IMG/VR virus record: IMGVR_UViG_3300030329_004816
Span: 1-47,240 of that record
Direction: 5' to 3' (one strand)
DNA: 47,240 nt
Source of the DNA: a virus
The notes below the pieces were generated by a model. It did not search any database and was not told where the DNA came from. It saw only the letters and a list, made by a program, of their open reading frames with translations. Shown in pieces: positions 3,630-33,132 of the stretch. A program made the position numbers and the translations under genes. How positions within the stretch are numbered: position 1 is the stretch's first letter; every line of letters starts with the position of its first letter.

Positions 3630-3642
3630 AATAGCTAGGTTT

Positions 3643-3681: not shown

Positions 3682-3710
3682 TGCCAGTTTAATTTTTATT
3701 TTTAGATAAA

Positions 3711-3986: not shown

Positions 3987-4427
3987 ATGGCTCTTTCAAA
4001 TCACGCAGAAAATTTAATACTGGATACTTTATTTGGGGTTAACGACACTTACGCCAATGGGGGCAGTTCACTGGACATGAATAATGTTTATATTGCATTA
4101 TTCACAAGCGAAACTACGGACTCCGGTGGAGGCAATGAGGTTAACACAAGCGGCACTGGGTATGCCAGACTCGCCGTTGCAAACAATAATTCTGACAATA
4201 AATGGACAGATGCGGTTGGTGGCGTTAAAAAGAACGCTGTAGAATTGACGGTTACCACAGGGTCGGGTGCGTCAGCAGACTGGGGAACAATTACTCATGT
4301 GGGTATCTTTGATGCCGTAACCGGAGGTAATCTACTTGTTCATGGGCCTTTAACGGCATCTAAAACTGTTTCGACTGGAGATGTTTTTAAGTTCGCTATA
4401 AACGACCTTCAGATCACTCTCAACTAA
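3987..4427 (+). CDS. Small phage structural protein
   Basis: 146 aa. The sequence follows a pattern I associate with a widespread small phage structural family: an N-terminal helix (SNHAENLILDTLFG), then VYIALFTSETTDSGGG, GTGYARLAVA, and a GIFDAVTGGNLLVHGPL block ending in a beta strand. Such proteins lie among head or tail genes and are annotated as tail-fibre-like or minor structural proteins. The gene abuts both neighbours with no intergenic space, so it belongs to the virion operon. The exact location in the particle cannot be read from the sequence. Confidence 0.7.
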   Translation: MALSNHAENLILDTLFGVNDTYANGGSSLDMNNVYIALFTSETTDSGGGNEVNTSGTGYARLAVANNNSDNKWTDAVGGVKKNAVELTVTTGSGASADWGTITHVGIFDAVTGGNLLVHGPLTASKTVSTGDVFKFAINDLQITLN

Positions 4428-5732
4428 ATGGCAACCCATTCAGCCAACACTGTCCTTGGTGGGGTATGTGGTGTTCTTGCTACGGCAACAACCATAACTA
4501 GTCCCACTGCGGCGAACATAATATGCAGTTCGTCAGTTCAGGCTGACGGTACTGTAATCTACGCCAAGTTTGGAAGTGCTAATCTATTAGCATCTTCCTC
4601 TATTAAAGCCGCAGGAAGGTTGACAGTTGACTACCTATCGGTAGGGGATGTGGTGGATGAGGTTTTAATGCTCTGGGGCATTGAATCTAAAGACTTGGCG
4701 AAGGATTTTCTTAGGCAACAGGCTATCAATGAAATTAATGCCTCGATGCAGTTTGTTTCCTCACAGGCCAAGGGACTGGAATATCTGGGGAGGACAACAA
4801 GGACTTATGATTTATCTCAGAATACGGCATCTGTAAGCCTCGAGGCTGACGTTCAGAATGTTATTGGCCCTGTTCGATGGTCTCGACCTGCTGTAGCGAT
4901 TGAGATTATTAAAAACACCAGCCCCTATTGTTGGATAGTGGATTTAGGAAGACTCGAAAGAGGGAACTTTACTTTAACTTTAACAGTTGGGGGAAGTGCG
5001 ACCACTTTTGATGCATGGGTAAAAGAGCCTGACGGAACTGATCCATTCACTCGCCATTATCAAGCTAATGATAAAACGCCTGGTGATTACACAAATAACA
5101 CAGGGAGGCTCGATCAAAGTTTAGATATACCTTTGATGTTAACTACACTGGAAGGTAATTCCAATGTAGCTAAAGGGGATTTGTTTATAACTGGAGAATG
5201 GCCCAGATATAAAATTGAATTAACAAACTCTGGAAGTGCTAGTTTAGGTGTTAGCAATATAAGTTCTGCAACGCTTCGAAGTGAAGATACTCCATTGAGA
5301 CCTATTGCTTCTAGGGGGCAGTTGGAATCTTGGAGGCAGACAACAGGGGCTTACCAAACCGGACATCCTGAATATTATTACATATCGAGAACCAAATCGA
5401 CTGAAAAAGATTCAACATCCATTAGTTTGGAAGTGAGGCCTCATCCGGATCTAGGTCAAGGGGTGGCCGTTGGAACTCTTTCAGTGGATGTGGCAACCGA
5501 GCCTCCCCGGTTCTCATGGCTGGATGTTGTTGCCGCTTCAAACGTCCCTATTCCTCATCGTTACGTTGAGAGTCTATTTTTGCCCATTGTTCGTTACCGG
5601 GCAACAGTGAGCCAGTATTACGTTGGGACTCAGGAAACATCCGCATCCATTCAGGCAGGGTATCAATCAGCACTTGCTCAGTACGGAATGGTTGATCCTC
5701 AAATCAAGGAAGCAGAGGAGGCGGTAGCATGA
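4428..5732 (+). CDS. Putative neck/head-tail adaptor-type structural protein
   Basis: 434 aa. The N-terminal 70 residues are Ala/Ser/Thr-rich. A helical block follows (DEVLMLWGIESKDLAKDFLRQQAINEINASMQF, about 78-110), then a beta-rich middle with LERGNFTLTLTVGG, which looks like a small insert domain. The C-terminal block has PHRYVESLFLPIVRYRA and a helical tail. The helical block and the xRYVESLFLPxxRxxA pattern resemble phage adaptor or tail-completion proteins joining portal and tail. The next protein has a related block (DEYCESMLVPLAARE), so the two may be distant paralogues. The stop overlaps the next start by 4 nt (ATGA). Confidence 0.6.
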   Translation: MATHSANTVLGGVCGVLATATTITSPTAANIICSSSVQADGTVIYAKFGSANLLASSSIKAAGRLTVDYLSVGDVVDEVLMLWGIESKDLAKDFLRQQAINEINASMQFVSSQAKGLEYLGRTTRTYDLSQNTASVSLEADVQNVIGPVRWSRPAVAIEIIKNTSPYCWIVDLGRLERGNFTLTLTVGGSATTFDAWVKEPDGTDPFTRHYQANDKTPGDYTNNTGRLDQSLDIPLMLTTLEGNSNVAKGDLFITGEWPRYKIELTNSGSASLGVSNISSATLRSEDTPLRPIASRGQLESWRQTTGAYQTGHPEYYYISRTKSTEKDSTSISLEVRPHPDLGQGVAVGTLSVDVATEPPRFSWLDVVAASNVPIPHRYVESLFLPIVRYRATVSQYYVGTQETSASIQAGYQSALAQYGMVDPQIKEAEEAVA

Positions 5733-14485: not shown

Positions 14486-14791
14486 ATGCCGGTAACTCTC
14501 CCATCTAACGAAATAGACATATTCGGACATAAATACCGGATTGCAGTGGAAGAAATGTCTACTGATGAGCTTGGGAGGTGTGATACGGTTATTCAAAAAA
14601 TAACTATCCGGTCTGATCTTTTGCCTGATGCGTCAAAGGATACCCTTTTACATGAAATATCTCATGCGATAGCCTTTCATCTTGGAATTGAAGACCCTGC
14701 ACCTGAAGAGGTGTGGGTATCAAAAATTGCGACAGGACTGAGGACAGTCTTGGCAGGAGATGAACTATCCGATTGGATATTTAGCCGCTAA
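14486..14791 (+). CDS. Small HExxH zinc metallopeptidase-like protein
   Basis: 101 aa. The gluzincin motif HEISH is at residues 56-60 within KDTLLHEISHAIAFHLG. A Glu pair follows in DPAPEEVWVSKIATGL, which may give the third zinc ligand. The order (short beta N-terminus, DTVIQKITIRSDL, then HExxH) matches small phage metallopeptidase-like proteins related to ImmA/IrrE or SprT types. ImmA-like proteins cleave repressors, so a role in the lysis-lysogeny switch is possible but unproven. It directly follows the winged-helix gene and converges on the gene at 14788 with a 4-nt overlap. Confidence 0.75.
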   Translation: MPVTLPSNEIDIFGHKYRIAVEEMSTDELGRCDTVIQKITIRSDLLPDASKDTLLHEISHAIAFHLGIEDPAPEEVWVSKIATGLRTVLAGDELSDWIFSR

Positions 14792-16143: not shown

Positions 16144-19100
16144 ATGGCTCAAAGGAAATTTGGCCGCAAGGTCGAAAATGTAGGAAGACCGGGGCTTAAT
16201 CCCGGAAGAAATAACCTTGAAAGGGATGAGGCTCCCCCAGCTACCGATATAGATCCGGGCATAGCCCAAAAGCCTATTATATCGAGACCAGAGAACATAG
16301 ATCCGGGCATAGTTCATGGAGCAAGACCTAATCCTATGGTCGATGAAATTATTAATCGAACCAGAAAAGAAGCTATTGATGATTCTGCTCCTGTTGGACA
16401 GGAGCCATCGATCCGTCCTAGGATATTTGATCCAAGGAAAATCCAGCACAAACAGTTAAAGGATATTAATAAAGACCTAATCACGAGGCTCAATATAGAA
16501 GACCGAGAGGCCAATCGTAGACAGGAAGCACTTCAGAGGGAAAGCAGAACGAGAAGAGAGAAGGCATCTAAGGCACTTCAGGAACAACTGGAAGAACAAA
16601 GGGCAGAAGATTACTTTCAAGCAGAAAGAAGATTGGATCGAGAAGGCATTCAGTATGATAAGGATCGGCAAGGAAGACCAATCGTCAGGCGTGATAAAGA
16701 GGGGAAACCAACATACACCAAAAAGACAGGTGATATTGAAATTGACGAGAAGACAGGTCGGGCTTTCCGAATGGACAGAGATTCAAAGGGTAACCTTAAA
16801 CGAGTCGATGTTGATAAAGATGCAAAAGTTGGCCCTGATGCCACGAGAGATGACGGATTCATTTATCGCCAGAATAAATATACCGATTGGGAGCAAATCG
16901 ACCCGGAGGAAGGTCGATTCAGTTCTGATAGGAAAGTTGCTGTAGCATCTGCTAAGTATTTATACGAAAAGGAAAAGGAACGCATTGAAAGGCTGATAGA
17001 TGATCCTGTCCTCCCTCCAAAACTTACGAAAAGCGAAAAGAAGAAATACACTGAGGAGAGAGATAACATAAATAAATCTTTAGAAGATCTAGAGAAAAGT
17101 TTTAAAGATGGAGAAATCAAGGAAGAGGATTACAACGAATCTTTAACCTCTCTTCAAAATCAACTTCAAGAAGCGGAAGATAATTTAGGGGCAGGAGCAG
17201 AACGAGAAAAGCTGGAAAGGGAGCTATACGATCTTGAGGGTCGAGGGGCGGCGGCTTTTATGAAGCCGGGAGCCAAAAAGGAGGAGGGTGACCCGGCTAA
17301 AGAGGAGGCAGGGGAGTTAAAGACCCAAATTGAAACTTTTGAAAAAGAGCAGGAAGAATTTTCTCAGGGAATAGAAGCTGAGAAAGCAGAATTGGATGCG
17401 CTTCAAGACAAAGCGAAACAAGGAGGTTTAAGCGCAGAGGAGACTTTTGAGCTAACGGAGGAAATTAAAAGAAAAATAGCGGATGTAAATTCTCGCATTG
17501 AATCTGGCAACGAGAAATTATCTATTGATGCAGAAGATATTCGTAAAAGAAGTAAGGACTTAGCCTCAAGGCAAAAGTTGGCTTATCAAAAAGCTGTAAA
17601 AGAAAGAGACAAGCAACTTGATAGTCTAACGAACCCAATGACTTCAGATGTCATTGATGAGTTTCGTAAAGGGTTGGCTGAAATTGAAGCTAGGGAAAAG
17701 GCGTGGGCGGAGCTTCCCGGGGATCTTGATCGCCTCAAAAAGTTGGGGGCAGGAGCGAAAGCGGAAGACCACTACAAGAAACAGGTTAAGCACCAACTGG
17801 ATTTAGACAGGGAAAAATTAGCCGAACAATTTCAAGCAGGTCTCGAACAAACTGATGCACTGAAATCTGAAGCTGTTGAGGAAATAGAAAAGATACAGGC
17901 AGAAGTAAGCGAAGAGGTTGCATCTATCAGAATGCCTGTAGGCGGATCACGAGGCTTTGATCCAAATATATCTCAAAAAGTTCACGAAGAAAGAGAAGCA
18001 ATTTCAAATACTCTCCCCGAGAGAATTAGAAAATCCTTAACGGAAAAAGGCTTCAAACCTGACCAGATCGAGGCCGTAGTTGGAGATTTTGAAAAATCAA
18101 AAGACGTATTCAATGGAAAAGTGGATTCAGCCCTTTTGTCAGATGGAAGAATACAAGTCTCTCCTAGACTCATTTACAATTCTGATGACGAATTAAAAAA
18201 GACAATATCTCAAGCTGGTGGAACTAAAGAGCAACAGGATGCCGCCTTTTTAGAGGCCAGAAGAATGCAGGATCAAATGGGTGCGGAAATGGCCGAAACC
18301 ATTGGGAAAACCAAGTATGGGAAAGATTTTATCGAGTTCTCATCAAAGTTCATTGATGACTTTAAAAAGCAGAATCCACATTTCATAGACAAGGATGGGC
18401 AATACACAGAGGATAGCGAAGGGTTAAGGCCAACTCATGGCACTCTCATCAGGGCATTTAAGAATGCCAGAGGCGATTTATGGAATAATATTGCTTGGAA
18501 CGAATTTGGTAATTCATTGGGTCAAATCATGGCGTGGGTTCCTGCGATGATGGGATCTCAAAAGTATAAAGATGCAGGTGCTCAATTAAAAAAGGACAAC
18601 GAGGAACTTGCACAGCTTGGAGAGTTGATTGATAGCGAGGGATTTTTCCTTGGCTTTACCAAAAGAGAATTAATGGGCGGAGGATTATCTCTTGTTCCCT
18701 CGATGCTTCCCGGCATGGCGTTTGGGCGAGTAGCTACAGTTTTAGGGGCTGGAGGCAAAGCCGCAACTACAGCAGGTATGGTCGGCGCAACCGCAGGTGC
18801 TTTCGCTCAAAGTGGTGCTCCTACTTATTTTGATGCTCGTGAAGGATTTCAAACCAAGATTTACAACGAGTTACTTAAAGCCGAAGGGGTTGACGTTTCC
18901 GAAATATCGCCTGAAAGAATTTCAGAAATTGAAAAGGAATCGATAGAAAGAGCCGATTCACAAGCTCTTTGGGTTGGTTTAGCCACTGGTACTATCACTG
19001 CCGTTGTTATGGGAGTTTCGGCGAAACTTGTAGGGCCGAAAGGTGTTGAAGCAATCCTGAATAGAAATAAAGGAGGGATGGTTCCTGTCCGTCAGGTGGT

Positions 19101-22100
19101 TCGTGAATTATCTAAAAAGGGATTAAAGAAGGCATTAAAGAGTAAAGAATTTTATGCGTCCATTGGGAAAATGGCCGCAGACTTTGGAATTAATGTGAGC
19201 GAGGAATTTGCAGAGGAATTTTCCGATCAATTATTTAATGGCATCCTTGAAGCAAATACATTTAACCCTGATAAATCCTTTTCTGAAATACTTGCCGAGT
19301 CATGGAAAGCAGGAGTAATGGGGGCAGTTTTAGCTGGTGGCATGTCGGGGGCAGGAAGTGTTAAGAATGGGTCTTCAGAAGGCTGGAGTCAGTGGAGGAA
19401 GTCTATTAAAGACAAGAAGTCTTCGCTTGATAATATAAGTGATATTCCCTCGACTGAAGATCCTGTTGATAACCTTGCTCCGCAGGAGCAGTTAGTTTCA
19501 GCAGAACTTGAAATTGATAACTGGACACCCCCAGAAGGGGCGAACCCAGCGAGTATCGATTTAGACAAGAGGATGGCAAAGGCGGCAGGGCGCATCGCTG
19601 TTGGTGACATTGATTCTGTATCTGAGGCGGATTTAAACCTTTTAAATTTACAGAGAAATAAAGCAGGGGAAGTAGAGTCTGCGAAAGCTGACGGAGATCC
19701 CTGGGCAACTGCGGAAAATGGAGTCCCAATTCTAGGGCAAACATTAATTGATAGCCTGAGTCAAAGGCATCCAACATTAGCAAAACTACTGCCTAAAGAC
19801 GAAGCATCTCAGCGACAGTCGGCAAGACCTGTTGAGGAACAGAAACAAGCGGAGCAACCAAAGGCATCAGAGCCTTCTGAAACAAAGACACCAGAAGAAC
19901 AGGAGCAGGTTGGAGGAACTTTTGAAGTTCCAGTTTATGGAAAGGAAGAGCCTGTTCAGGTTGATGCTCTTGATGAGGAAGAAGCCGGAAGGAAAGTCGC
20001 TGAAATGGGGGTAGGAATGGTGGACTTTGGTGGCATCATCCAAACTGGCGTTGCTAAGACTCCAAGCCCTAAACCGCCAAGCCCTGAGACTGAGGAGATT
20101 GTATCTTCGGCTATTTCCCAGATCGAACAAGAAAAAGGAAGGGAACTTACTGCGGCGGAAAAAGCAGGAGTTAAAAAAGCGGCTTCTTTAGTTTCTAAGC
20201 AAATTGAAAAATGGGGTAAGATTTTTAAAGGCGTAGGCTGGACTCTTGAATCTATAGGGTCAGGGGGGATGTACACTAAAGATGGTAACTTAAATTTCTC
20301 AGTTCCAGATCTTTTAAGGAATCTCGCTTCAGAAAATATTGATTCGAAAACATGGGCGGAAAAAGCAGGTCTTGAGGAAGCGATTCACCTTGTCGCTTTT
20401 CAATTACACAAAGAAGGAAAAATTGATATCCGCAAACTATGGAAAGATTTACCAAAAGAAATCCAAGATGCAGTCAGAAAAACTTACCCAATTGAAAAAA
20501 AGGAACTTCAGAGATTAAGCGAAGAAATAAACGTACCAGTTGGAGAAATAGAAGCTGAACAGTTGGGAAATGAATTTCTTCGGATGATTGTTCAAGGCAG
20601 AATGGCTGTCAAAGATGGCCTTTGGGAGCTTGATGGGAGCGTAGTTTCAACTGAACAGGCTTCAAAAACACTGATACAATCAATCAGAAAGGCTTTTCAG
20701 GAGATTCTTGATTTCTTTAACGGAGTAATGGACTCGGATGAGGAGTTTGCCGTTGAAATCAGAAAGGCGGCAGAACTGATTGAACAAAGACTTAATGAAT
20801 TGACGGCTAAAACTGAGGAAAAGCCCAAGCCCAAGCCCAAAAAGGTGGCTAAAAAGAAAGTTGCTCAAAAAGAAGCACCGACTAGAGGGCCGCCTACCGG
20901 AAGAGTAGAAGGATCTACTGCACAAGTTATTAACGCAGGGAGAACTGTTAATGTTCGGTATGAGGTCAGATCTGCTTCAGATTCTAAACCATCACATGAC
21001 GCTTTAGGCAGAAAAACCGAGGGATACCCACAGGAATTACAGCCAAGGGATCGTTCGACAAAGGAGTACAGGCAACAGGCTAGAAATATCGCTAACAATC
21101 TTGATTTTGATAAGGCTGTATTTTTTCCGGGAACTGATACACCAGCGACTACAGCAGATATTGGAGCACCTATAATTACTCAAGAGGGAGCGATGGGAGA
21201 AGGAAGCCCATCATTTACTCTTATAGGTAATGGAAGGGATATAGGAGCAATAGAAAGTTACAGACTGGATACTCCTGCGTCTAAGGACTACAAACAAAAG
21301 CTCATTGATAATGCTGACAAGTTCGGACTCGACCCCGAGGCAGTATCCAAAATTAAAGACCCTGTATTATACAGAGTAATTACTGATAACTTATCAACAC
21401 CAGAACTAATAAGGTTTTCACAGGAAAGTAATGAGGGTGAAGCAATGGCTTCTAATGCTGTCGAGTTAGCAGGTCAAGATGCTCAAAGACTTACTCCTCA
21501 AATTCTTTATGCCTTAGATCCAGAGTTTGCAATAGACAGTAAAAAGAATCAAAAGTTTCTAACCCTTTACACTCAGAAAGTAATTGGTGCTCGTTCTGCA
21601 AATGAAGCAAACATAACTAAAAGTGATTTAGCTAGAAGAGCTAAAATGGCAATTTTCACGGCGGCTTACGGCCTCGATGCTGAAGGCAGGGCCGCATTGG
21701 ATCGCATGTCTGGTGATTCAGGAGATGCGGCAAAGCGTTTAACTAACGCTTTAATAACTGTTTCCCCGATGGTTGCCCGAATGAGGCAAGATATAGAGGC
21801 AGGTGCATTAAATGATTTAGACATATCCAATGATATTGCTAAAGCAGTTCAAAAGATATCCAGTGCTATCAGAGACGCAAAAAATATTAGCACAGCATGG
21901 GAGAGCCTCGAGGGGCAAGGTGAATTTGATTTAGGAGGAAAGGGAGTTGAAGATTTAATTCTCGATTACTTAGTAACTAACAGGGGAAATAGAAGCTCAT
22001 TAGAAAATGCTATAGGTAACTATGTCGAATCTGTTTACAGAATTGGAGACCCCAGACAAGAGGACATGTTTGGCAAAAGAGCTTTCCCTTCTCGGGAGGA

Positions 22101-25100
22101 ACTTTGGAATATTGCCGCTCAAGATGTGGAAAAGCCTGTAGAGGAAACTCAAAAAGCCGCAAAACCACTAAACGTTGCCTTAAAATCACAGCAGTTATCC
22201 GAGAAAAATTCTTTACAGGAATCCATAGATAAACACAAGGAAGCAGGAATTAAAATTGAGCCGTTCGTGGATTCGGATGGCAGAACCTTTAAGTTTGCCG
22301 AGACTATACTAAAGGCAGTTCAAAAACTTCCGCCGGAGACAAGAGAGGAACTCTTCCGTCTTGCAGTTGAAAATCAAGAGATTGCCAGATCTGAAAAGAA
22401 CAAACTTCCCAAAGAGGTACTTGCTGAAATTGCTAATATTAACAAGAAAAAGATCGAGCAAAGAACTCTTAATAGAGAAGACTACAAAGATCAGTGGAAT
22501 GATCATATTAAGAAGTACGTTAATCCAGAAGAAGGAATTGATTACAATAAGGATTTAGAAACGGAGATTGATAGGTTAGCTCAAGAGAATGGTGCTATTC
22601 CGCTTATGGGGCCAATCAAAGGAGATCGAGCAATCGATAAGGCTATTGATAAGGCAGAGGAGAGAATGGAACATAAACTAAAAATCAATCCAAACTTTAA
22701 CGAAGTTATCGAACCAGACTTTAACGAATTAACTGACGTTATTAGAGGATCATTAATTGCTACCACAAATGCAGAGGTTGATCAGTTAGTAGACTCCGTG
22801 TACGAAAATCCAAACTGGACGGTAATTAAAAATTCAAAAGGCCCAGAAGGAAAGGCCGATAAAAAGGATCGAAAACTTCACAAAAACAGATTTAAAAATC
22901 CTGTCGGCGGATACAAAGATCACATGATCTTAGTTGAAATGGCTCCCGGGGTAATTGCTGAGATTCAAGTTCATCGTGCTGACACTATTTATGCTAAAGA
23001 GGTCGGGCCGGGGCATTTGTTTTACGAGACAACCAGACAAATCATTGAGAGCAAAGTTCACAAAAGGAGTGCGCTAGGCTATAAAGGCACTCGAGTTACT
23101 CGCACTGCGAATAAAAAGTTTAAAGAAATCTCTAGGATATCAAAAGATTACTACACTAATTCGAGCAATATTTATGAAGATCAATTAGGAGACAAATATG
23201 ACCCTAATTTGAAAACTCAACGAGCCGCCGCATCGAGTTCAGCAGAAATGCGAAGAGCTTCCTCCTCGGTGATTTCTTCTGCACCAGAAAGTACAGTTTC
23301 GGTTATCCGAGCACGGCGGTCATCGTCTACAGGCTTAGATGCTCCAGCTATTCTAAGAAAACCCGGGCCTACCTCCCAAGGTATACCTGTTTCAGATAGA
23401 ACAAATGATGTTGTTACTTCCGGCATTACGCCTATTAATACATCAATTCCGCTAAAAGCGCAAGACTTAGATCTATTTAATGACTATGCAAAAACCCTAC
23501 CAGCTAGGACAAAAGCGTCAAAACCAGTATTTAAAAGGAAGGTGGCAAAAGATCTACCAGCCGCCTCGGGAAAGGATATTGATAATTTATTCGATTGGTT
23601 TAATGTGCCTGTAAATGAAGACGTTAGAGGAGATGCCGAAACAGGAACTCAGGGAGCACCCGATTTGGGAGAAGGTTTGGGACAATCTGAGCGAGGAGAA
23701 CCCTCGATTCCTGCTCAACAGTCTAGAGACAGTGGATCAAAGAGCGAAGATGATGATCAGAGCGACCAAGGGAGGGGTAGAGTGGACGAGCGCATCCCAA
23801 CAGATACTCCCGGAGAATCTGGAAGAGCAGAAGCCACTGACAGAGAAGGAACAGAAACAATTCCAGAAGATGAGCGACCTAGTGGAGAAGATGCTAGAAG
23901 AGAGGGACGAGAAGAGTCACCAAGAGTTCTTGAAAGGCCAGAAGTAGATTCCCCTGAAAGGAATCATACAATCGAGAGCCAAGAGGATCTAAATCCTTCG
24001 GGAGTCAAGGCTAGGATCAAAGCAAATGTTAAGGCGTTAAAACTTTTAAGAACGCTTGAAAAAGAGGACAGGAATCCAACTCCAGAGGAAAAATCTGCAT
24101 TAGCTAAGTTTTCAGGATGGGGAGCGGTTCCACAAGTCTTCGATAGAATTAAACTTCAAGAATCTCAGGATCTTGAAAGTTATCAAAGGGACTATGATAG
24201 GAATATAGAGACAGCTAATAAATCAAGTTCCTATATGAAGGATGTCTATCTTGAAGAAGCTCAGAAAGCTAAAGAAAAAATAGATAGATTAGGTAAGTGG
24301 GAAAAGAAATTCGGCAAAGAGGCAAGAGCTTTAAAAGAGCTTTTAACTGAGGATGAATGGGAGACGGCGGCGGCTTCAATCACTAATGCTCATTTTACAA
24401 GCATTGATGTAATTAAAGGAATGTGGGATGCTGTTGAAAGAATGGGTTTCAAAGGTGGGGTTGCTCTGGAACCTGCGGCTGGAGTTGGTCATTTCTTCGG
24501 AGCGATGCCTGACAAACTGTCTGACAGGACTTCAACAGTTGGAGTCGAGTTGGATTCAATATCAGGGCGTATTTTTTCTAAACTATACCCAGAAACAAAT
24601 GTATTTGTTCAAGGTTATCAAGATGCCCCAATAGAACCCGGGGCGGCTGATCTTGTTATCTCAAATGTTCCTTTTGAGAACACGTTTACTGTCGATGATA
24701 AATCATTGGGTAAAACTCCAAAGTTTAACCTTCATAATTACTTTTTCGCCAAAGCCCTTCAATCGGCGAAACCGGGAGGAATTGTTGCATTTATAACAAC
24801 TCATTTCACTATGGATGCTTCAGCAGATCAAAGAAGATGGTTGGCAAAGCATGGAGATTTAGTGGGAGCTATAAGGCTTCCCAATACGGCATTTAAGAAA
24901 AACGCAGGTACAGAGGTAACTACAGATATTATTTTCCTCAGAAAACCAGATGGTAAAAAATTCGAAGGAGAATCATGGAGCGAAGTTTCTGAGCAAAAAT
25001 TCCCTAAAGGGGGGCCAGTAAATGTAAACGAGTACTTTATTAAAAACCCTCAAATGATACTAGGCCGACTCAGTAATGATGGGTCAATGTTTGCTACTGA

Positions 25101-28100
25101 AGAAAAAGGAGAACTTACGGTTCATCCAACAGGGGATCTAGGAAGGCAACTATCTGAAGCAGTTAACAGGCTCCCATCTAATATTTTCGGAGAAGGATCT
25201 AGAACAGGAAAAATAGGAGAAGCAAAAAAAGAATCCAAGCGGAAGCAAGGGTCGATCTATTTGGATGGTAAATCAATTAAGGTGGAAGGTGTTTCTAAAG
25301 CGAAGTTACCAAAAAGGCCAGTAGTTGAATCTTTCATTCAAGTTAGAGATTCTCTTAATAATTTATTGGAAGCCGAAAAAGATCCTAATTCGACTGAGGA
25401 AAATATCACTTCAATACGAAATGATTTAAACAGGCTTTACGACTTACACGTTAAAAAGCATAAGAATTTCCACACAAGGGCATCTAAAGGTCTTTCCGTT
25501 GACCCAGATTACTATCGAGTCCTAGGACTTGAGCTTCAGCAGGAGGACGGCTCATTTAAAAAGGCATCCATCTTTAATGAAAGGGTGATGCGCCCTGTAG
25601 AAGAGCCTACAAGTGCCGACTCACAGGAAGATGCTCTTGCTCACTCACTGTCGTGGAAGGGGCTGGTAGACATCGATTACATGGCTCAACTTCTAGGGCA
25701 ACCTAAAGAAAAGATTTTAGATGAATTTGTAGGAAGCGGCCTTGGTTTTATAAATCCTGATAATGGATTGCCTGAGATCAGAAATCACTATCTCTCAGGG
25801 AACGTAAGGGAAAAGCTATTACAAGCAAAAGAAGCGGCTAAAACTTCAGAGAAGTTTGAAAGCAATGTAGAGGCATTAGAGGCAATTCAGCCAAAAGATT
25901 TAAAATACGAAGAAATATCATATTACCTTGGGTCAGCTTGGATACCCGGGGAGGTTATAGAGGATTTCGCACAAAACAGAATGAACTTAACTATGTCAGT
26001 TAATTATATGAGAACCGACACAGTTAATGAGATGGTTACTGAAAAGTGGGATGTTCAATCAACTGCTAGATGGTCACAGAGTAATGCTGAATTTGACCCA
26101 GGTGTTCCGAGATACAATGCTCAAAAAATATTAGAAAGTGTATTAAATTTAAGAACTCCAATAGTTAGAAAGAATGTAGGGACATCAGAAGACCCTCAAA
26201 TGGTTATAGATGAGAAAGCTACAGCCAACGTTAAGGCCGCCCAAGAAAGGATGAAGTTAGCTTTTAAAGACTGGATTGATGAAAATGAAGGCGCACAGAA
26301 CGCATTAACCGCTAACTATAACGAAAATTTCAATAACTATGTGGAGCCGACATATAACGGTCAACACATGGTGTTGCCTTGGATTAATCCCAAGTTTGAT
26401 TTATTCCCTGCCAAGAAAGACGTTGTATTTAGAGCTATACAAGATCGTAGAGGATTAATTGCTCATGGTGTTGGTGGAGGTAAAACAGTTATTGCTACAG
26501 CCATAGCAATGGAAATGAAAAGGCTTGGATTGGCTAACAAGCCATTGATTGCCGTACACAATGCAACTCTTGAACAATTCTCTGAAACTGTCAGAGAAAT
26601 GGCTCCAGATGCCAACATCCTAGTTGCTAGGAGATCAGATCTTGCAGGTGCAAAAAGAAAAGAGTTTTATGGGAAAATAGCATCAGGCGATTGGGATATG
26701 ATTATTATGGCTCAATCTACATTGGATCGGATACCTGATGATCCTGCTTACGAAAGAAAAATTCTTAATGAGGTAAAAGATCAGTTTATAACTTCCCTTC
26801 AACAAATTGCGATTGATGAAGGCAAGGACACACCAACTGTTAAGGAATTACAGAAAAGAATTAAGAGTATTAATGCTAAAATTGCTAAATTACAAAAAAG
26901 GAAAGTTGATGATATTTTAACTTTCCAAGAAATGGGCATCGATGCTCTTATCTTAGATGAGGCTCACTTATATAAGAAGCTCCCTTATGCTACAAAGCTA
27001 GGTAATCAAATAGCAGGTATAGATCGAGGGGCATCGCAAAGGGGAACATCTTTCTTAACCAAGTCACGGTACATTCAAGAAAACCAGAATGGTAAAAACA
27101 TATTTACCATGACAGGAACACCAGTAACTAACACTCTTGGTGAGACTTGGAATATGATAAGAATGGTTGCGCCTGATTTATTGTCTGATTTTAACGTCAG
27201 CACATTTGATTCATTTGCTACCACTTTTACCGAGATTGAAACTAGAGATGAACTGAGACCTAATGGAAGGTTCAAAAGAATACAAAGACTATCCAAAATA
27301 AGTAATATCCCGGAATGGAATAGGCTGTTTAGGCAAGTGGCTGACGTTAAACTTGGAGAAAAAATGGACGTAAAGAATCGTCCTGAGATCGAAGGTGGAG
27401 AGGCATTGCTTAAAGTGGTTCCTCAAACGGAAGGTGTTAATCAGTTTACTGAATATATCTTCAAGGTGATTGATAAATTTGATAATTTGGAAGGTAAGCA
27501 GAAAAGAGAATTTTCATACATCCCACTTGTTTCGTTTGGTGCGGCTAGAGCGGCGGCAATAGACATGAGAATGGTTGATCCTAATGCAAAGGACGAGCCG
27601 GGGAGTAAACTCAACAAAATGATCGACAGTGCAATCGATCTGTATAAAAAGCACGACAGCCAAAAAGCAACGCAGGTTGTTTTTGCAGACACATTTAGAG
27701 CAGTTAAAAGAGTAAAGCTCGAGGAGTTTCTTGAGGGTAACGTAATCGAGAGAGATATAACTGAGTCAGATGTAGAGGAAGAGGTTTCTTTTGAGGACAA
27801 TGAATTTAATCTTTATCAGGAGATTAAGAACAAACTAGCATCAAAAGGTGTACCAGAAGAGGAAATAGCAGACATCCAAGATTACAAAACTCCAGAATCT
27901 AGGCAAAAACTTTTTGATAAAGTGAATAATGGAGAAGTCCGGTTTGTTTTGGGGAGCACTCAAAAACTAGGCACAGGAGTTAATATGCAAGAGCGGATGA
28001 TTGCCGCTCATCACTTAGATGTTCCTTGGACACCTGCGGATCTCGAGCAAAGAGATGGTAGAGTTTATCGCCAAGGGAATATTTTTTCAGAGCTAAATGT

Positions 28101-31100
28101 GCCTATTCATCTGAATAGATACGGAATGCAGGAATCCCTAGATGCCGCTTTGTGGGATAAGATAGAATTTAAAGAGAGGTTTATCCGTCAAGCTATGAGC
28201 GGTGAAATGAACGCTCGTGTTATTGAGGAGGATGAAGGGCTACTTAGTCTCGCAGAACAAAAAGCTATTCTTATGGGAGCGGATGGCCTTCGCTTTTTCC
28301 AAGTCAGTCAAGAGATCGAGGCATTAGTTAGAGAGCGGAAAGCTCACGATTCATTAAGGGAAAGATCAGTTAACAATCTATCTGAATCAAAGACCAAACT
28401 TGAATTTGCTAAAGCCTTTAATGAAAAGATGACCACTGCAATGGGCAATCTTGAAAACAAGTGGGATGAAGACATGGAATTTGGCATTGAGCTAAATAAC
28501 ATTAAATATGAAGACACTAAAAAGGGAATTAAGGCTTTAGATAGGGTTTTCAAAGCTCACAACAAATCGATAAATAACAAAAGATTTAAAACACTTAGCG
28601 AGTTAAACAATGACAAAAAGCTAAGAGAGCCTCTTGCCAGTGTGACCGTTGATGGGGTCGAGGTTGAATTGAGTCACAGCGTGTTCAGAGAGAATTTAAG
28701 TGGAAAAAATCAATATCGCTCTGAGTTCATTCCGATAATTAAGATGCCTGACGGCTTAACTGTTAATTTGGAAAAAGTTACTTCAGCCGACACTTTTGAG
28801 AAAAGAATTAGAGCCGCCAAGGAAAAAATCAATATTAAGAACATTGGAGCGGAGCGAACAGTGGCTAGGGAGACTGAAAACATTCCTACATATACAGAAC
28901 TCGCAGAAAGGCCATTTCCTCGTGAAAAGGAATTACAGGACATGGTTACCGAATACAGAGAGATCGGGCCTAAGTTTGATGCTGATATGGGAATTGTCGA
29001 TTCTATAGATCCTTTAAGTGAAGAGGAGACTTCAATTCCGTTAAAATCTCAGAACCTTGATACCGATACTGCCCTCCCCTCCCATGATTTAGGAGGAAAA
29101 AAACCTTCTAGAGAAAAAATGGCTGACGCAATGATAGCGGCTAATCAAATGTTGCCTAGGGATCGTAGTCGTAAACAATTTGCTTACGAATACCGAAATG
29201 CAATGCCTAATCAAAAGTGGTTAACTGCATACGAGTTAGGGAACAGGTTATTCAGAGGAAGTGCTGAAGGAAAAGCAGCTTCTCAATCAATCCTTAATCG
29301 GTGGGTTGAGTCTGGCCTTGTGGACAGGATGTGGACTGAAGATGGTACACCTATTTATGCTTGGTCTGGAACGAAGCCGGAAAAAGGACTTTTAACCATG
29401 GATCAAATCAATAAAAAGTATCCAGAAGACGCACCACAATTTGAAAGGTTCGATGCAACTACACCTAATATTCTAAAATCTCAGAACCTTGATCCAGAGA
29501 CAGACGCTAGATACGACTTTGAGAATGTTCTTGATGAATTAACACTTCCTCCTGAGACTCTTAATATTTATTCGGGGGGTAGACTATTAGGGCGAAGAGG
29601 CGAAGATGTAGTTCGCAAGGCTCTTTTATACAAGGGCGAGAAAAGTCCACCTAAAATAAAAGAAGCAATTTTGGACGGAGGAGAGTCCTCAAATGTTTCA
29701 GAATCTATATATCCAGTGATTCTGGTTGAATTGGAAAATGGGGCAGAGTTCCGCAAAATCATTAGAATTTCAAGACATGATCAACTGTCCTCTCGTTCTC
29801 CAAGAGGATACGACTTGGATTATAGAGGCAAGAATTGGACAGAGGTTAAAAGCGATGTGCTTATAGACTTGCAAAACCTCGCTGACGATATTTGGGAAGA
29901 ACAAAAGAAAACCATTACTGGAGAAGTTGTTCCGGCAGAAGAGATAAGCCGAGAGAATGAAAAGAATAGGCAAGAGCGCATAGGCTACATTTCACGCCAA
30001 ATAGATAATCTTGAAAAGATAGGCATTCCTGCCCGAAGAAGGAAAGGCCATCTAGATAAGGTGCAGGAGTTTGAGGAAAGAGTTGCCAAGCTAAAAGAAG
30101 AACTTGTAAGCCTCGGCACTCAAACTACCAGTAATATTCTAAAATCTCAGAACCTTGCTGAAATCACAGGCGATACCGAAATCGATGTAGAACTTAAAAA
30201 GCTATACCAAGAGGCTCTTAACGAGCAATCCGGTGAACGCACTATAGGAAACCCTGAATTAGCTATAGGAGCGGAAGACCCTGCAATAATGTCTGTCGAT
30301 GAATATCGCAAGACGGCTGTAGGGGCTGAAACTTTTGAGCAGTGGAATGCTGAAGCCAAGGTAATGGTAGAAAACGATTACGAAGGAACAGCAGAAAGAA
30401 TTAAACAGCTTGGATTTGAAGGAGGGACTCTCGACCCTGTATTGACAAGAGCGGCGCAAATGATTGTTGCTCAAGAAATGTCGATGCCCATGACGAAGGA
30501 AAGAAGGGAAAATGTTCAAAAATTAGTCTGGGCATACAGGGCAACTGGAACAGAACAGGCCAGAGGACTGGCCTCGAGGAGAGACCCATTTAAAACACCT
30601 GAAGAAAGGCACAAGGAATTTCTTGGCAAGGTAATCTTCACGCCTCCGGCAAAGGTCAGGAAGAAGGTTGAAAAGGCAAGGACGCAGGAAGAGAAACAAA
30701 AGATTCTCGATAAAGATGCTATCCGGATTCAGAAGATTGAAAAAGAACTCGCAAGAATGGGAGTCACCTTTGATGACATTTTTAGAGGGGAAGTCGAGCT
30801 AACTCTTAAAGGATCGAAGATAAAAACAAATATCACAGAAGGATATTCTGCAAAACAAAAAATGGTTATCAAACTATTTAGTAGTGGTAAGACCTTAAAG
30901 CAAATTGCCAAAATGGTTGAATTGACTGTTAGCGAGGTAAAGCAGGTTCGGAATGCCTTTAAAGAGGAATTTGTACGGAGGCATTCGGATAAAGTCAGGC
31001 AAGGAGTAAAAGCAGAGGATCTGAGCGTTGACGATGAAACACTTATCCTTAAATCAAGTCCCTTGGATTTAAGCGAAGCTGAAGTTGATGCTGAAATTGA

Positions 31101-33132
31101 AAGAATGCTTCTTAAAATGGGTATCCCTCCATTAAACAAAATAGGCAAAATGAAAACTCGCAAGAGAAAGCCTAAAAAGAAAATGTTTAGACCTCCTGCT
31201 CCAAGCGGTGCTGAACAGGATGCCAAATGGGATGAGTTTAAAGACAGAGACTTTGAACCTGATTCTACTGATTATGTTCAAGAAGTCATGGTTGGAGTGG
31301 ATCTTTACGACCCTGTTGAAGTAGTTAAGATTGCGAGAGCGGCACAATCGGCTGATAGCAATGGGTGGAGTATGCTCCACGAATACTGGATCAACAATAT
31401 CCTTTCCGGCCCTCAAACGCATGTAGTTAACGTGACAGGAAATGTTGCTAATGCCGCATGGGATTTCACTGTTCAAAGAGGCATGGAGGCCATGCTTAAT
31501 ACAATTTTCAAGTCTGAAAAAGGAGCCACATTTAAAGAATATCGCCACATCATAAAAGGAATAATGCCTGGAGTGGCAAGGGGGATGAGATTAGCCCTGA
31601 AATCGTGGGGTGCTGAAACTGATTTCTTTAGAGCGGAAGTCCTTAATGAGCAGATCGATTTGAATGATGGATATATTAAAGGGGAGGGACATAAATCCTC
31701 TGTTCGTGGGAAAAAAGGAAAAGTCATCAGAATCCCCGGCAGGGCATTGTTATTTGCTGATACTTTCTTCAAAGGTCTCTTTGGAACTATGGAGGCAGGG
31801 GCGCAGGGGTACAGAATATCTAAAGCTCAAGGACTCAAAGGAAAAGAACTTGAGAAGAAAATTGCAGAATATGTAAACACTCCCAATAGTCAGGCTTGGC
31901 AGATCGCCGTTGATAAGGCTACAGATCTCACCTTCCAGACTCCTTTGAGATCAAGAGAAGAAGGAGGCAACTGGGCTGAAGCCGCAGTCCACTGGATATC
32001 AATGGGATCAAGGTCAGTTCCTCTTCTTAATTGGGTGATTCCTTTTGCAAGGACACCATTTAATATTTTTAAACAGGGAATGAGAAAGTCTCCACTTGGG
32101 ACAATTAATTTTGCATCGCACTTCCTCCGGAACGGTCTTTTCCGAAGGGAAAAAGGACAAACTGTCATCGATGCTTACCCTGAATTAATAAGAGATGCCG
32201 CAGAGCAGGTCTTGGCATGGACAGCTTACGCTGTCTTGCATGGAGCGGTTGAAGGAGATGATGATGACGATGAAAAGTTTTTCCTGATTACAGGATCAAG
32301 GCCTCCAAGATCGGGAGAAGCTGGAGTAAGGCAAAGAGATACAGGAGGAGATTATGTTATAAAAATTGGGGATCTCAAAATTCCGTATGGCCGAGTAGAG
32401 CCATTTTCAACAATCTTAGGAACAACGGCTGACTTAATTAGAGCCACGAAATCAAAAGCCACATCAGAAAGAGTTTATGGACAGTTGTGGGGATGGATGC
32501 TGGGTCAGGCCAGAAATAAAACCTTTATGCGTGGGCTAGGTGACGTTGCTAAAGCAATAGAAAAGCCGGAATCAGCTAGTTCATATACAAGTAGGTTTGT
32601 TAAAAATGCCATCGTACCAAACCTTATTCGACAGCCGATAAGGAATGTCGATAAGTATGATCGTGAATGGCGAAGCAAAGAATGGTGGTATGACATCCTG
32701 CCTTTACCATCGGGGGCTGAAAAGAAAGTTGATCCAGCAACAGGAAGATATGTTGAACGTGCTGGAACTGCGGCAACTAGACTGGTAATACCCAAAATTG
32801 AAAAGACTCAGAAGTTGGTTCAATCTGATAAATTTTTAGTTAATTGGAACCGAGAGAACCCTGCTCAAACTTGGGGGCCAACTACGCCTAGCAACAGCCT
32901 CAATATGCTCGATGGAAAAGGTCATATAAAACTGGGGCCGAACAGTTATAAATACCTCGTCAAAAGGTCAGCAACTCTTGCTCAAGGGCTGTTGGATGGT
33001 AAATTATCCCCATTCGACATTAAAGAACCTCGAGAGCGTAAACTGAACGAAATCCAGACAGCTTACAGAAAAGGGCGTGAACAGGCCAGAGATGAGCTTA
33101 GATCAAGACCAGAAATTTTGCTGAAGAAGTAA
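16144..33132 (+). CDS. Giant polyvalent protein (5662 aa), probably ejected with the DNA
   Basis: A single open frame of 16,989 nt. Order of parts by residue: 1-700 disordered and coiled coil; 840-1075 membrane-like Gly/Ala segments; about 1360-1560 degenerate metallopeptidase-like region with EEAIH (1411-1415) in place of HExxH; 1600-1995 DdrB-type ParB domain; 2150-2310 RelA/SpoT-like nucleotidyltransferase; 2340-2610 Ser-rich then acidic linkers; 2620-4060 DarB-like adenine methyltransferase plus helicase; 4060-4290 coiled coil; 4310-4430 winged-helix-like; 4451-4662 unknown domain; 4900-4945 sigma region 4-like helix-turn-helix; 5040-5662 the C-terminal domain with NNILSGPQTHVVN. LKSQNL-type linkers recur between parts. 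Polyvalent proteins of this type (P1 DarB/DdrB are known relatives) travel in the capsid and protect incoming DNA from restriction. It sits directly before the portal gene, consistent with a virion protein. No frameshift or stop interrupts it. Confidence 0.93.
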   Translation: MAQRKFGRKVENVGRPGLNPGRNNLERDEAPPATDIDPGIAQKPIISRPENIDPGIVHGARPNPMVDEIINRTRKEAIDDSAPVGQEPSIRPRIFDPRKIQHKQLKDINKDLITRLNIEDREANRRQEALQRESRTRREKASKALQEQLEEQRAEDYFQAERRLDREGIQYDKDRQGRPIVRRDKEGKPTYTKKTGDIEIDEKTGRAFRMDRDSKGNLKRVDVDKDAKVGPDATRDDGFIYRQNKYTDWEQIDPEEGRFSSDRKVAVASAKYLYEKEKERIERLIDDPVLPPKLTKSEKKKYTEERDNINKSLEDLEKSFKDGEIKEEDYNESLTSLQNQLQEAEDNLGAGAEREKLERELYDLEGRGAAAFMKPGAKKEEGDPAKEEAGELKTQIETFEKEQEEFSQGIEAEKAELDALQDKAKQGGLSAEETFELTEEIKRKIADVNSRIESGNEKLSIDAEDIRKRSKDLASRQKLAYQKAVKERDKQLDSLTNPMTSDVIDEFRKGLAEIEAREKAWAELPGDLDRLKKLGAGAKAEDHYKKQVKHQLDLDREKLAEQFQAGLEQTDALKSEAVEEIEKIQAEVSEEVASIRMPVGGSRGFDPNISQKVHEEREAISNTLPERIRKSLTEKGFKPDQIEAVVGDFEKSKDVFNGKVDSALLSDGRIQVSPRLIYNSDDELKKTISQAGGTKEQQDAAFLEARRMQDQMGAEMAETIGKTKYGKDFIEFSSKFIDDFKKQNPHFIDKDGQYTEDSEGLRPTHGTLIRAFKNARGDLWNNIAWNEFGNSLGQIMAWVPAMMGSQKYKDAGAQLKKDNEELAQLGELIDSEGFFLGFTKRELMGGGLSLVPSMLPGMAFGRVATVLGAGGKAATTAGMVGATAGAFAQSGAPTYFDAREGFQTKIYNELLKAEGVDVSEISPERISEIEKESIERADSQALWVGLATGTITAVVMGVSAKLVGPKGVEAILNRNKGGMVPVRQVVRELSKKGLKKALKSKEFYASIGKMAADFGINVSEEFAEEFSDQLFNGILEANTFNPDKSFSEILAESWKAGVMGAVLAGGMSGAGSVKNGSSEGWSQWRKSIKDKKSSLDNISDIPSTEDPVDNLAPQEQLVSAELEIDNWTPPEGANPASIDLDKRMAKAAGRIAVGDIDSVSEADLNLLNLQRNKAGEVESAKADGDPWATAENGVPILGQTLIDSLSQRHPTLAKLLPKDEASQRQSARPVEEQKQAEQPKASEPSETKTPEEQEQVGGTFEVPVYGKEEPVQVDALDEEEAGRKVAEMGVGMVDFGGIIQTGVAKTPSPKPPSPETEEIVSSAISQIEQEKGRELTAAEKAGVKKAASLVSKQIEKWGKIFKGVGWTLESIGSGGMYTKDGNLNFSVPDLLRNLASENIDSKTWAEKAGLEEAIHLVAFQLHKEGKIDIRKLWKDLPKEIQDAVRKTYPIEKKELQRLSEEINVPVGEIEAEQLGNEFLRMIVQGRMAVKDGLWELDGSVVSTEQASKTLIQSIRKAFQEILDFFNGVMDSDEEFAVEIRKAAELIEQRLNELTAKTEEKPKPKPKKVAKKKVAQKEAPTRGPPTGRVEGSTAQVINAGRTVNVRYEVRSASDSKPSHDALGRKTEGYPQELQPRDRSTKEYRQQARNIANNLDFDKAVFFPGTDTPATTADIGAPIITQEGAMGEGSPSFTLIGNGRDIGAIESYRLDTPASKDYKQKLIDNADKFGLDPEAVSKIKDPVLYRVITDNLSTPELIRFSQESNEGEAMASNAVELAGQDAQRLTPQILYALDPEFAIDSKKNQKFLTLYTQKVIGARSANEANITKSDLARRAKMAIFTAAYGLDAEGRAALDRMSGDSGDAAKRLTNALITVSPMVARMRQDIEAGALNDLDISNDIAKAVQKISSAIRDAKNISTAWESLEGQGEFDLGGKGVEDLILDYLVTNRGNRSSLENAIGNYVESVYRIGDPRQEDMFGKRAFPSREELWNIAAQDVEKPVEETQKAAKPLNVALKSQQLSEKNSLQESIDKHKEAGIKIEPFVDSDGRTFKFAETILKAVQKLPPETREELFRLAVENQEIARSEKNKLPKEVLAEIANINKKKIEQRTLNREDYKDQWNDHIKKYVNPEEGIDYNKDLETEIDRLAQENGAIPLMGPIKGDRAIDKAIDKAEERMEHKLKINPNFNEVIEPDFNELTDVIRGSLIATTNAEVDQLVDSVYENPNWTVIKNSKGPEGKADKKDRKLHKNRFKNPVGGYKDHMILVEMAPGVIAEIQVHRADTIYAKEVGPGHLFYETTRQIIESKVHKRSALGYKGTRVTRTANKKFKEISRISKDYYTNSSNIYEDQLGDKYDPNLKTQRAAASSSAEMRRASSSVISSAPESTVSVIRARRSSSTGLDAPAILRKPGPTSQGIPVSDRTNDVVTSGITPINTSIPLKAQDLDLFNDYAKTLPARTKASKPVFKRKVAKDLPAASGKDIDNLFDWFNVPVNEDVRGDAETGTQGAPDLGEGLGQSERGEPSIPAQQSRDSGSKSEDDDQSDQGRGRVDERIPTDTPGESGRAEATDREGTETIPEDERPSGEDARREGREESPRVLERPEVDSPERNHTIESQEDLNPSGVKARIKANVKALKLLRTLEKEDRNPTPEEKSALAKFSGWGAVPQVFDRIKLQESQDLESYQRDYDRNIETANKSSSYMKDVYLEEAQKAKEKIDRLGKWEKKFGKEARALKELLTEDEWETAAASITNAHFTSIDVIKGMWDAVERMGFKGGVALEPAAGVGHFFGAMPDKLSDRTSTVGVELDSISGRIFSKLYPETNVFVQGYQDAPIEPGAADLVISNVPFENTFTVDDKSLGKTPKFNLHNYFFAKALQSAKPGGIVAFITTHFTMDASADQRRWLAKHGDLVGAIRLPNTAFKKNAGTEVTTDIIFLRKPDGKKFEGESWSEVSEQKFPKGGPVNVNEYFIKNPQMILGRLSNDGSMFATEEKGELTVHPTGDLGRQLSEAVNRLPSNIFGEGSRTGKIGEAKKESKRKQGSIYLDGKSIKVEGVSKAKLPKRPVVESFIQVRDSLNNLLEAEKDPNSTEENITSIRNDLNRLYDLHVKKHKNFHTRASKGLSVDPDYYRVLGLELQQEDGSFKKASIFNERVMRPVEEPTSADSQEDALAHSLSWKGLVDIDYMAQLLGQPKEKILDEFVGSGLGFINPDNGLPEIRNHYLSGNVREKLLQAKEAAKTSEKFESNVEALEAIQPKDLKYEEISYYLGSAWIPGEVIEDFAQNRMNLTMSVNYMRTDTVNEMVTEKWDVQSTARWSQSNAEFDPGVPRYNAQKILESVLNLRTPIVRKNVGTSEDPQMVIDEKATANVKAAQERMKLAFKDWIDENEGAQNALTANYNENFNNYVEPTYNGQHMVLPWINPKFDLFPAKKDVVFRAIQDRRGLIAHGVGGGKTVIATAIAMEMKRLGLANKPLIAVHNATLEQFSETVREMAPDANILVARRSDLAGAKRKEFYGKIASGDWDMIIMAQSTLDRIPDDPAYERKILNEVKDQFITSLQQIAIDEGKDTPTVKELQKRIKSINAKIAKLQKRKVDDILTFQEMGIDALILDEAHLYKKLPYATKLGNQIAGIDRGASQRGTSFLTKSRYIQENQNGKNIFTMTGTPVTNTLGETWNMIRMVAPDLLSDFNVSTFDSFATTFTEIETRDELRPNGRFKRIQRLSKISNIPEWNRLFRQVADVKLGEKMDVKNRPEIEGGEALLKVVPQTEGVNQFTEYIFKVIDKFDNLEGKQKREFSYIPLVSFGAARAAAIDMRMVDPNAKDEPGSKLNKMIDSAIDLYKKHDSQKATQVVFADTFRAVKRVKLEEFLEGNVIERDITESDVEEEVSFEDNEFNLYQEIKNKLASKGVPEEEIADIQDYKTPESRQKLFDKVNNGEVRFVLGSTQKLGTGVNMQERMIAAHHLDVPWTPADLEQRDGRVYRQGNIFSELNVPIHLNRYGMQESLDAALWDKIEFKERFIRQAMSGEMNARVIEEDEGLLSLAEQKAILMGADGLRFFQVSQEIEALVRERKAHDSLRERSVNNLSESKTKLEFAKAFNEKMTTAMGNLENKWDEDMEFGIELNNIKYEDTKKGIKALDRVFKAHNKSINNKRFKTLSELNNDKKLREPLASVTVDGVEVELSHSVFRENLSGKNQYRSEFIPIIKMPDGLTVNLEKVTSADTFEKRIRAAKEKINIKNIGAERTVARETENIPTYTELAERPFPREKELQDMVTEYREIGPKFDADMGIVDSIDPLSEEETSIPLKSQNLDTDTALPSHDLGGKKPSREKMADAMIAANQMLPRDRSRKQFAYEYRNAMPNQKWLTAYELGNRLFRGSAEGKAASQSILNRWVESGLVDRMWTEDGTPIYAWSGTKPEKGLLTMDQINKKYPEDAPQFERFDATTPNILKSQNLDPETDARYDFENVLDELTLPPETLNIYSGGRLLGRRGEDVVRKALLYKGEKSPPKIKEAILDGGESSNVSESIYPVILVELENGAEFRKIIRISRHDQLSSRSPRGYDLDYRGKNWTEVKSDVLIDLQNLADDIWEEQKKTITGEVVPAEEISRENEKNRQERIGYISRQIDNLEKIGIPARRRKGHLDKVQEFEERVAKLKEELVSLGTQTTSNILKSQNLAEITGDTEIDVELKKLYQEALNEQSGERTIGNPELAIGAEDPAIMSVDEYRKTAVGAETFEQWNAEAKVMVENDYEGTAERIKQLGFEGGTLDPVLTRAAQMIVAQEMSMPMTKERRENVQKLVWAYRATGTEQARGLASRRDPFKTPEERHKEFLGKVIFTPPAKVRKKVEKARTQEEKQKILDKDAIRIQKIEKELARMGVTFDDIFRGEVELTLKGSKIKTNITEGYSAKQKMVIKLFSSGKTLKQIAKMVELTVSEVKQVRNAFKEEFVRRHSDKVRQGVKAEDLSVDDETLILKSSPLDLSEAEVDAEIERMLLKMGIPPLNKIGKMKTRKRKPKKKMFRPPAPSGAEQDAKWDEFKDRDFEPDSTDYVQEVMVGVDLYDPVEVVKIARAAQSADSNGWSMLHEYWINNILSGPQTHVVNVTGNVANAAWDFTVQRGMEAMLNTIFKSEKGATFKEYRHIIKGIMPGVARGMRLALKSWGAETDFFRAEVLNEQIDLNDGYIKGEGHKSSVRGKKGKVIRIPGRALLFADTFFKGLFGTMEAGAQGYRISKAQGLKGKELEKKIAEYVNTPNSQAWQIAVDKATDLTFQTPLRSREEGGNWAEAAVHWISMGSRSVPLLNWVIPFARTPFNIFKQGMRKSPLGTINFASHFLRNGLFRREKGQTVIDAYPELIRDAAEQVLAWTAYAVLHGAVEGDDDDDEKFFLITGSRPPRSGEAGVRQRDTGGDYVIKIGDLKIPYGRVEPFSTILGTTADLIRATKSKATSERVYGQLWGWMLGQARNKTFMRGLGDVAKAIEKPESASSYTSRFVKNAIVPNLIRQPIRNVDKYDREWRSKEWWYDILPLPSGAEKKVDPATGRYVERAGTAATRLVIPKIEKTQKLVQSDKFLVNWNRENPAQTWGPTTPSNSLNMLDGKGHIKLGPNSYKYLVKRSATLAQGLLDGKLSPFDIKEPRERKLNEIQTAYRKGREQARDELRSRPEILLKK
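20926..22128 (+). other. DdrB-type ParB-superfamily domain within the giant protein
   Basis: Residues about 1595-1995 carry NVRYEVRSASDSKPSHDALG, then GYPQELQPRDRS, an IGAPIIT segment and LIGNGRDIGAIESY. This is the recognisable order of the ParB-like domain of phage P1 DdrB and related polyvalent proteins (SH, YPQELQPRDR, GAPI, GNGR). A helical part follows, ending near PRQEDMFGKRAFPSREELWN. The family is predicted to be nuclease-like and is linked to protection of incoming DNA; activity here is not demonstrated. Confidence 0.82.
22591..23073 (+). other. RelA/SpoT-like nucleotidyltransferase domain within the giant protein
   Basis: Residues about 2150-2310. A helical lead-in (DKAIDKAEERMEHKL) is followed by ELTDVIRGSLIA with D2198 in the metal-binding position. 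RFKNPVGGYKDHM carries Y2257 in the GY motif, VIAEIQVH has E2273 in the EIQ motif, and KEVGPGHLFYE occupies the place of the conserved AExGHWxYK block. This is the order of the (p)ppGpp synthetase fold. The lead-in lacks a clear copy of the Arg/Lys ATP-binding helix, so the nucleotide donor is uncertain. It may make alarmones, pyrophosphorylate another target such as tRNA, or be inactive. Confidence 0.72.
24001..28323 (+). other. DarB-like adenine methyltransferase-helicase region within the giant protein
   Basis: Residues 2620-4060. The N-terminal block VKARIKANVKALKLLRTLE and KFSGWGAVPQVFD is characteristic of DarB-like proteins. The methyltransferase has EPAAGVG (2776-2782) for AdoMet binding and SNVPFEN (2840-2846) as the catalytic NPPF-type motif. 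The helicase has Walker A GVGGGKT (3442-3448), DEAH (3605-3608), TMTGTPVTNT and the motif VI block QRDGRVYRQG (3969-3978). P1 DarB protects the incoming genome from type I restriction in cis, and the same role is likely here. Confidence 0.9.
29042..30157 (+). repeat. Dispersed in-frame DNA repeat encoding LKSQNL linkers (outer limits)
   Basis: The 18-mer TAAAATCTCAGAACCTTG occurs three times in the giant gene: 29042-29059, 29474-29491 and 30140-30157. The last two copies are identical over 26 nt (29466-29491 and 30132-30157). All are in the same frame and encode LKSQNL. Related peptides without close DNA identity are ALKSQQL (residue 2013), PLKAQDL (2437) and ILKSSPL (4968). The copies bracket compact domains, including a winged-helix-like domain and an unknown domain. 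Confidence 0.9.

Follow-up and report, generated by a model that had tools for sequence, protein, structure and literature searches.

Polyproteins of eukaryotic RNA viruses are cut by a cognate protease at sites repeated between their domains, and the site changes together with its reader. Among phages, the closest described counterparts are the polyvalent proteins, huge multidomain proteins encoded beside virion genes that carry a DdrB-type ParB domain and an adenine methylase-SNF2 helicase dyad; about one third of the members also carry a zincin-like MPTase with an HExxH motif, and Iyer et al. 2017 (PMC5512222) proposed that the MPTase brings about autoprocessing. Processing of DdrB and DarA of phage P1 is reported (PMC5512222; Streiff et al. 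1987, as cited in PMC9024508), and gp245, an ejection protein of the giant phage SPN3US, is cleaved by the prohead protease at an AXE motif (PMC10052503). The P1 proteins and gp245 are carried in the head and ejected, and they are cleaved at short motifs in their sequence. Autoprocessing by MPTase domains, as a prediction, and prohead cleavage of the AXE type (PMC10052503) are thus known already. Passages of Iyer et al. (PMC5512222) containing cleavage and motif terms describe no recurring boundary peptides, and in the open-licence literature we found no account of polyvalent proteins with a boundary peptide that recurs and is private to the genome; such accounts may exist elsewhere.

The window analysed here, the whole 47,240-nucleotide stretch of viral DNA, encodes a giant protein that resembles the polyvalent proteins in its size and multidomain build, in its DdrB-like ParB domain (PF18763, E=9e-18), in its adenine methylase and SNF2-type helicase dyad (PHROG 10089 'DarB-like antirestriction', E=8e-261) and in its position beside virion genes, with the portal gene following the giant gene and the major capsid gene also within the window. 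Unlike the HExxH-bearing polyvalent proteins, it has a zincin-like region that reads EExxH, and HExxH is absent from the entire giant protein. The C-terminal ~450 aa resemble T7-type (gp16-like) internal virion protein D (tblastn, 7 phages; best Desulfovibrio phage ProddE, E=2e-14), but in the window this module is fused behind ~5000 aa of effector domains. Because of this ejection-type C-terminus and the nearby portal and major capsid genes, the giant protein is likely injected into the host bacterium.

16144..33132, + strand: giant DarB-like polyvalent protein, 5662 aa, adjoining the portal gene
20011..20823, + strand: zincin-like region, EExxH...E in place of HExxH, common to loci L003, L022 and L024

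The EExxH form, kept in three lineages, may be a variant or a dead metal site. The model of the zincin-like region is of low confidence (pTM 0.60), and Foldseek and VIA-align gave no zincin match for it.

The giant protein contains six copies of a short peptide, LK[SA][QS]xL, each at a domain boundary, starting at aa 2013 (ALKSQQL), 2437 (PLKAQDL), 4300 (PLKSQNL), 4444 and 4666 (both ILKSQNL) and 4969 (ILKSSPL). With roughly even confidence, we read LKSQNL as this phage's genome-specific boundary peptide of an injected polyvalent polyprotein, most likely a predicted cleavage site.

22180..22197, + strand: motif copy 1, (A)LKSQQL, 3' of the ddrB-ParB domain
23452..23469, + strand: motif copy 2, (P)LKAQDL, ahead of the methylase-helicase block and followed by DLF
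29041..29058, + strand: motif copy 3, (P)LKSQNL, between the end of the helicase block and the start of D3
29059..29472, + strand: D3, small domain between motif copies, no family, homolog in locus L123
29473..29490, + strand: motif copy 4, (I)LKSQNL, between D3 and D4
29491..30138, + strand: D4, domain between motif copies, no family, no homolog found
30139..30156, + strand: motif copy 5, (I)LKSQNL, between D4 and D5
31048..31065, + strand: motif copy 6, (I)LKSSPL, between D5 and the C-terminal ejection module

At the DNA level, three copies share an exact 18-mer, TAAAATCTCAGAACCTTG, at 29042-29059, 29474-29491 and 30140-30157, and two share an exact 26-mer, TAATATTCTAAAATCTCAGAACCTTG, at 29466-29491 (copy 4) and 30132-30157 (copy 5). 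These are the longest exact repeats of the window and lie in one shared frame of the ORF 16144..33132, at the place given in the original prediction. Copies 2 and 3 also have an upstream stretch in common, TCAATTCCG (TSIPLK). The further claim that the domains between the repeats are unrelated holds, since D3 and D4 each match only themselves when compared with the rest of the giant protein, and the diverged versions predicted at other boundaries (ALKSQQL, PLKAQDL and ILKSSPL) are indeed found there.

Among the plausible genes of the window, only that of the giant protein contains LK[SA][QS]xL, the remaining six-frame matches falling outside plausible genes. Within the giant protein, the motif is absent from the junctions that link the membrane-like region at the N-terminus, the zincin-like region and the ParB region. 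When recurring 7-mers were sought blindly, with DNA identity left out of the score, the motif family reached 131, whereas local shuffles averaged 117 (sd 3.4, z=4; 100 shuffles, the best of which tied at 131). Given the peptide, the chance that all codons of the three KSQNL copies agree is ~8e-5 under the codon usage of the gene. Copy 6 (KSSPL) is a degenerate version. D5 has a weak sigma/HTH match; the model of its region is poor (pTM 0.31) and offers weak support at most, placing copies 5 and 6 within or beside low-confidence stretches.

Codon comparison revealed high agreement among copies 3-5 (16/18, 89%, vs 0.38 expected) and near-chance agreement at the identical residues of copies 1, 2, 3 and 6 (10/24, 0.42, vs 0.34 expected), in a test whose copies were selected by peptide and which shows peptide sharing without DNA sharing, not by itself a measure of selection. 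Copies 3-5 therefore arose by recent copying of DNA that encodes an older peptide. Observed and expected codon identities in relatives are 0.55 and 0.50 (L003), 0.32 and 0.25 (L021) and 0.17 and 0.35 (L059), and the old copies of L019 show some excess (0.54 vs 0.36 by chance). The DNA identity had been ascribed to recent copying or to selection on the DNA: copying is borne out for copies 3-5, whereas selection on the DNA is disfavoured by older copies that share the peptide and not its codons.

Relatives are about 45% identical to the window in the methylase-helicase block; the closest viral contigs, L019-L024, reach 47-49% there in their best segments, and direct inspection of them revealed no LKSQNL. 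Alignments of the window protein with that of L019 cover residues 1604-2008, 2439-4276 and 4673-5657 (numbering +2), ending 7 aa before copy 1, resuming at copy 2, ending again ~25 aa before copy 3 and resuming at copy 5. Domain content in relatives had been expected to break exactly at the repeats; the alignments end at or near the copies, some with these offsets. The interval from the helicase to the C-terminal module holds D3 and D4 in the window versus a RadC domain and sigma-70 regions in L019. There, the RadC-containing insert has on either side a linker encoded by a 106-nt direct repeat (93% overall; near-identical core of ~90 nt), so linker copying accompanies domain gain in L019 too. 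The D3 homolog in L123 (40% identity over ~106 aa) is set between quite different linkers and has no LKSQNL flanks; the motif therefore does not travel with the domain.

These comparisons bear on the proposal that the repeats are homology islands in the DNA, kept by selection because they let recombination exchange domains in frame. Such islands would suit the in-frame identity of 26 and 18 bp, the alignment breaks at or near the copies and the Sak4-like annealing protein and PD-(D/E)XK exonuclease that the phage encodes, but in three of the six copies the DNA is no longer identical although the peptide is kept, and L123 has its D3 homolog without the repeat. Across the viral contigs, the exact 18-mer has three chance matches, all outside any such gene, in unrelated DNA where no reading frame matches. 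Islands absent from relatives cannot promote exchange with them, and relatives keep the same domains without the repeats. We consider this explanation improbable; the copying of linker DNA stands (window copies 3-5 and the L019 repeat), and the island function is not supported. Judged from these sequences, it is the peptide that is conserved, and the identical DNA is a side effect of recent copying, because relatives keep the domains without the repeat and the older copies differ in codons.

Homologous boundaries carry different peptides in different genomes. At four of them, the window reads IPLKAQDL, IPLKSQNL, NILKSQNL and LILKSSPL, and L019 reads RLFAGQRS, PSLASGER, VLFSGERD and ELFAGEKP. 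L019 has a motif of its own, [LM][FA][AS]G[EQ][RGK], in six copies, four of which lie at boundaries homologous to those of the window. L021 has LSAPRRN and LFSPTRN at two homologous boundaries, with LSSPARN and LNSPLRA elsewhere; the private motifs of L021 and L003 are weaker than that of L019, and L020 has no clear motif. Boundary segments, picked by homology alone, resemble those of their own genome more than those of other genomes (permutation p=2.9e-4). This value rests on the window and L019, with no contribution from L020, which is without a clear motif, or from L021, which is unremarkable in this test. Genome-specific patterns, which were written after the sequences had been seen, match their own genome only: six times in the window, six in L019, four in L021, four in L003 and five in L136 (RYSP[SGR]R), with 0 matches in others. 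A blind per-protein motif search of 91 giants has low power (only 23 beat five shuffles, many of those not with boundary motifs), and homology-anchored tests were therefore used.

Likeness of linkers within a lineage could also arise by a neutral founder effect, in which inserted domains bring a duplicated linker and the linkers of each lineage are alike because they descend from one ancestral linker, the peptide having no function. Linker duplication is real in L019, where the 106-nt repeat surrounds the RadC-containing insert, and the 89% codon sharing of copies 3-5 and the presence of TCAATTCCG in copies 2 and 3 agree with it. Old copies, however, retain the peptide and not the codons, and what is retained is the peptide core rather than the whole linker. 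In L019, VLFSGERD, ELFAGEKP and SLASGERA occupy homologous boundaries in linkers that otherwise differ. We regard the founder effect as distinctly unlikely.

An independent test was made on ART-PolyVal domains, which end in GTFDPNNPxI followed by a variable tail; the tail was compared with the peptide preceding the same domain. Each of 25 distinct tails, a set in which one genome supplies two entries and the match of L028 (IAFDS) is a parsing artefact, was scored against its own N-flank and those of other entries, and own flanks match better (p=5e-5). A second set obtained with other DNA patterns (n=14, two entries coming from one locus, L162) gave p=0.003, and an earlier version counting matches anywhere in the protein was weaker (p=0.004). 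Flank/tail pairs include LTAAPP/LTAAPP (L132), RFSNR/RFSNR (L124) and LFQKA/LFQEA (L138). These pairings indicate that unrelated polyvalent proteins show the same own-peptide boundary pattern. In L132, an ART domain at aa ~1374-1560 with LTAAPP on both sides is the cleanest one-peptide bracketing outside the window. Window copies 4 and 5 (TTPNILKSQNLD and TTSNILKSQNLA) are shaped like ART tails (NPNI-L-x-[SQ]), a reading for which no homology is claimed.

Cleavage, the second function that the original prediction had offered for the peptide, best fits the private peptide, its homologous boundaries, its concerted turnover and its parallels in unrelated polyvalent proteins, and on this sequence-based footing the sites are putative. 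A private peptide shifting in concert at many sites is most simply explained by one reader: a single trans-acting factor would read the peptide, and hence all copies would have to change together. This reader would most likely be a phage-encoded protease, because processing of P1 DdrB and DarA is reported and autoprocessing of polyvalent proteins has been proposed. The putative cut would fall around the S/A or the Q in [PI]LK[SA]-Q. It would take place before the protein is packaged or once it has been ejected, and would split off the ParB, methylase-helicase, D3, D4 and D5 modules and the ejection module as individual proteins. A newly gained domain would arrive with a linker copy, giving rise to DNA-identical repeats.

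As in the polyproteins of eukaryotic RNA viruses, the same site recurs at domain boundaries in the window and changes in concert between lineages; the analogy is one of working only, the window belonging to a DNA phage with an injected protein, and no homology is claimed. Cuts in SPN3US gp245, bar self-cleavage, yield N-terminal propeptides at AXE, whereas the window motif lies between domains; the window sites, which read LK[SA][QS]xL, contain no AXE motif.

The same private, concerted, peptide-level conservation would be expected of an uncut docking motif, bound at each boundary by a chaperone, scaffold or portal factor of the phage that readies the giant protein for ejection by loading or unfolding it one domain at a time. 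The protein has an ejection-type C-terminus, and the virion RNA polymerase of phage N4, which has an MPTase domain, is packaged unprocessed (PMC5512222). Exact placement between domains is nevertheless expected more for cutting than for docking, for which no binding partner is known, and we rate docking as rather unlikely.

For cleavage by a phage-encoded protease, the preferred reading, the best candidate enzyme in the window is a small HEISH protein encoded two genes upstream of the giant gene.

14486..14791, + strand: 101-aa putative metallopeptidase, HEISH, candidate processing enzyme (PHROG_1233, E=8e-13; DUF6782 and SprT-like matches weak)

No homolog of this HExxH ORF was found in the other compared loci, and Pfam and PHROGs searches of the window ORFs, from a record that may be incomplete, found no prohead protease. 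Somewhat short of even confidence, we suggest that many tailed phages may inject polyproteins cut at a private peptide code by a phage-encoded protease, that the code drifts between genomes (LKSQ, LFSG, RYSP, RFSN, LFQ and so on) and that each captured domain has to gain it. Should this hold, the polyvalent proteins of phages would be polyproteins with readable cut sites, which would define effector boundaries exactly in many giant proteins that lack annotation and help to account for free domain shuffling. The long-standing guess of autoprocessing would become directly testable by N-terminal proteomics, and a private code would predict which genomes have a protease in common.

Several further features were observed in these proteins. 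In L019, aa 3030-3192 comprise sigma-70 regions 2 and 4 (PF04542 and PF08281) inside a probably injected polyvalent protein, and, judged by eye, L021 and L024 seem to carry a similar domain; a phage may deliver a sigma factor along with its DNA. The stretch between copies 1 and 2 (window 22198-23449) resembles, by eye, a RelA/SpoT-type synthetase fold (GYKDHMILVEM...AEIQV), and Pfam and PDB sequence searches gave no match for it. Ahead of the methylase block, a disordered stretch reads QDLDLF in the window (23461-23478), EQLDLF in L019, NQLSLF in L021 and L024 and EDLDLF in L020, which is similar to QL[SD]LF, the motif for binding the bacterial sliding clamp; it perhaps recruits the methylase to DNA. 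The boundary motif itself was considered as a sliding-clamp binder and rejected, as this fits only the adjoining DLF at copy 2 and no other copy. Near the start of the giant gene, a 16-nt direct repeat, ATAGATCCGGGCATAG, at 16249 and 16297 encodes IDPGI twice.
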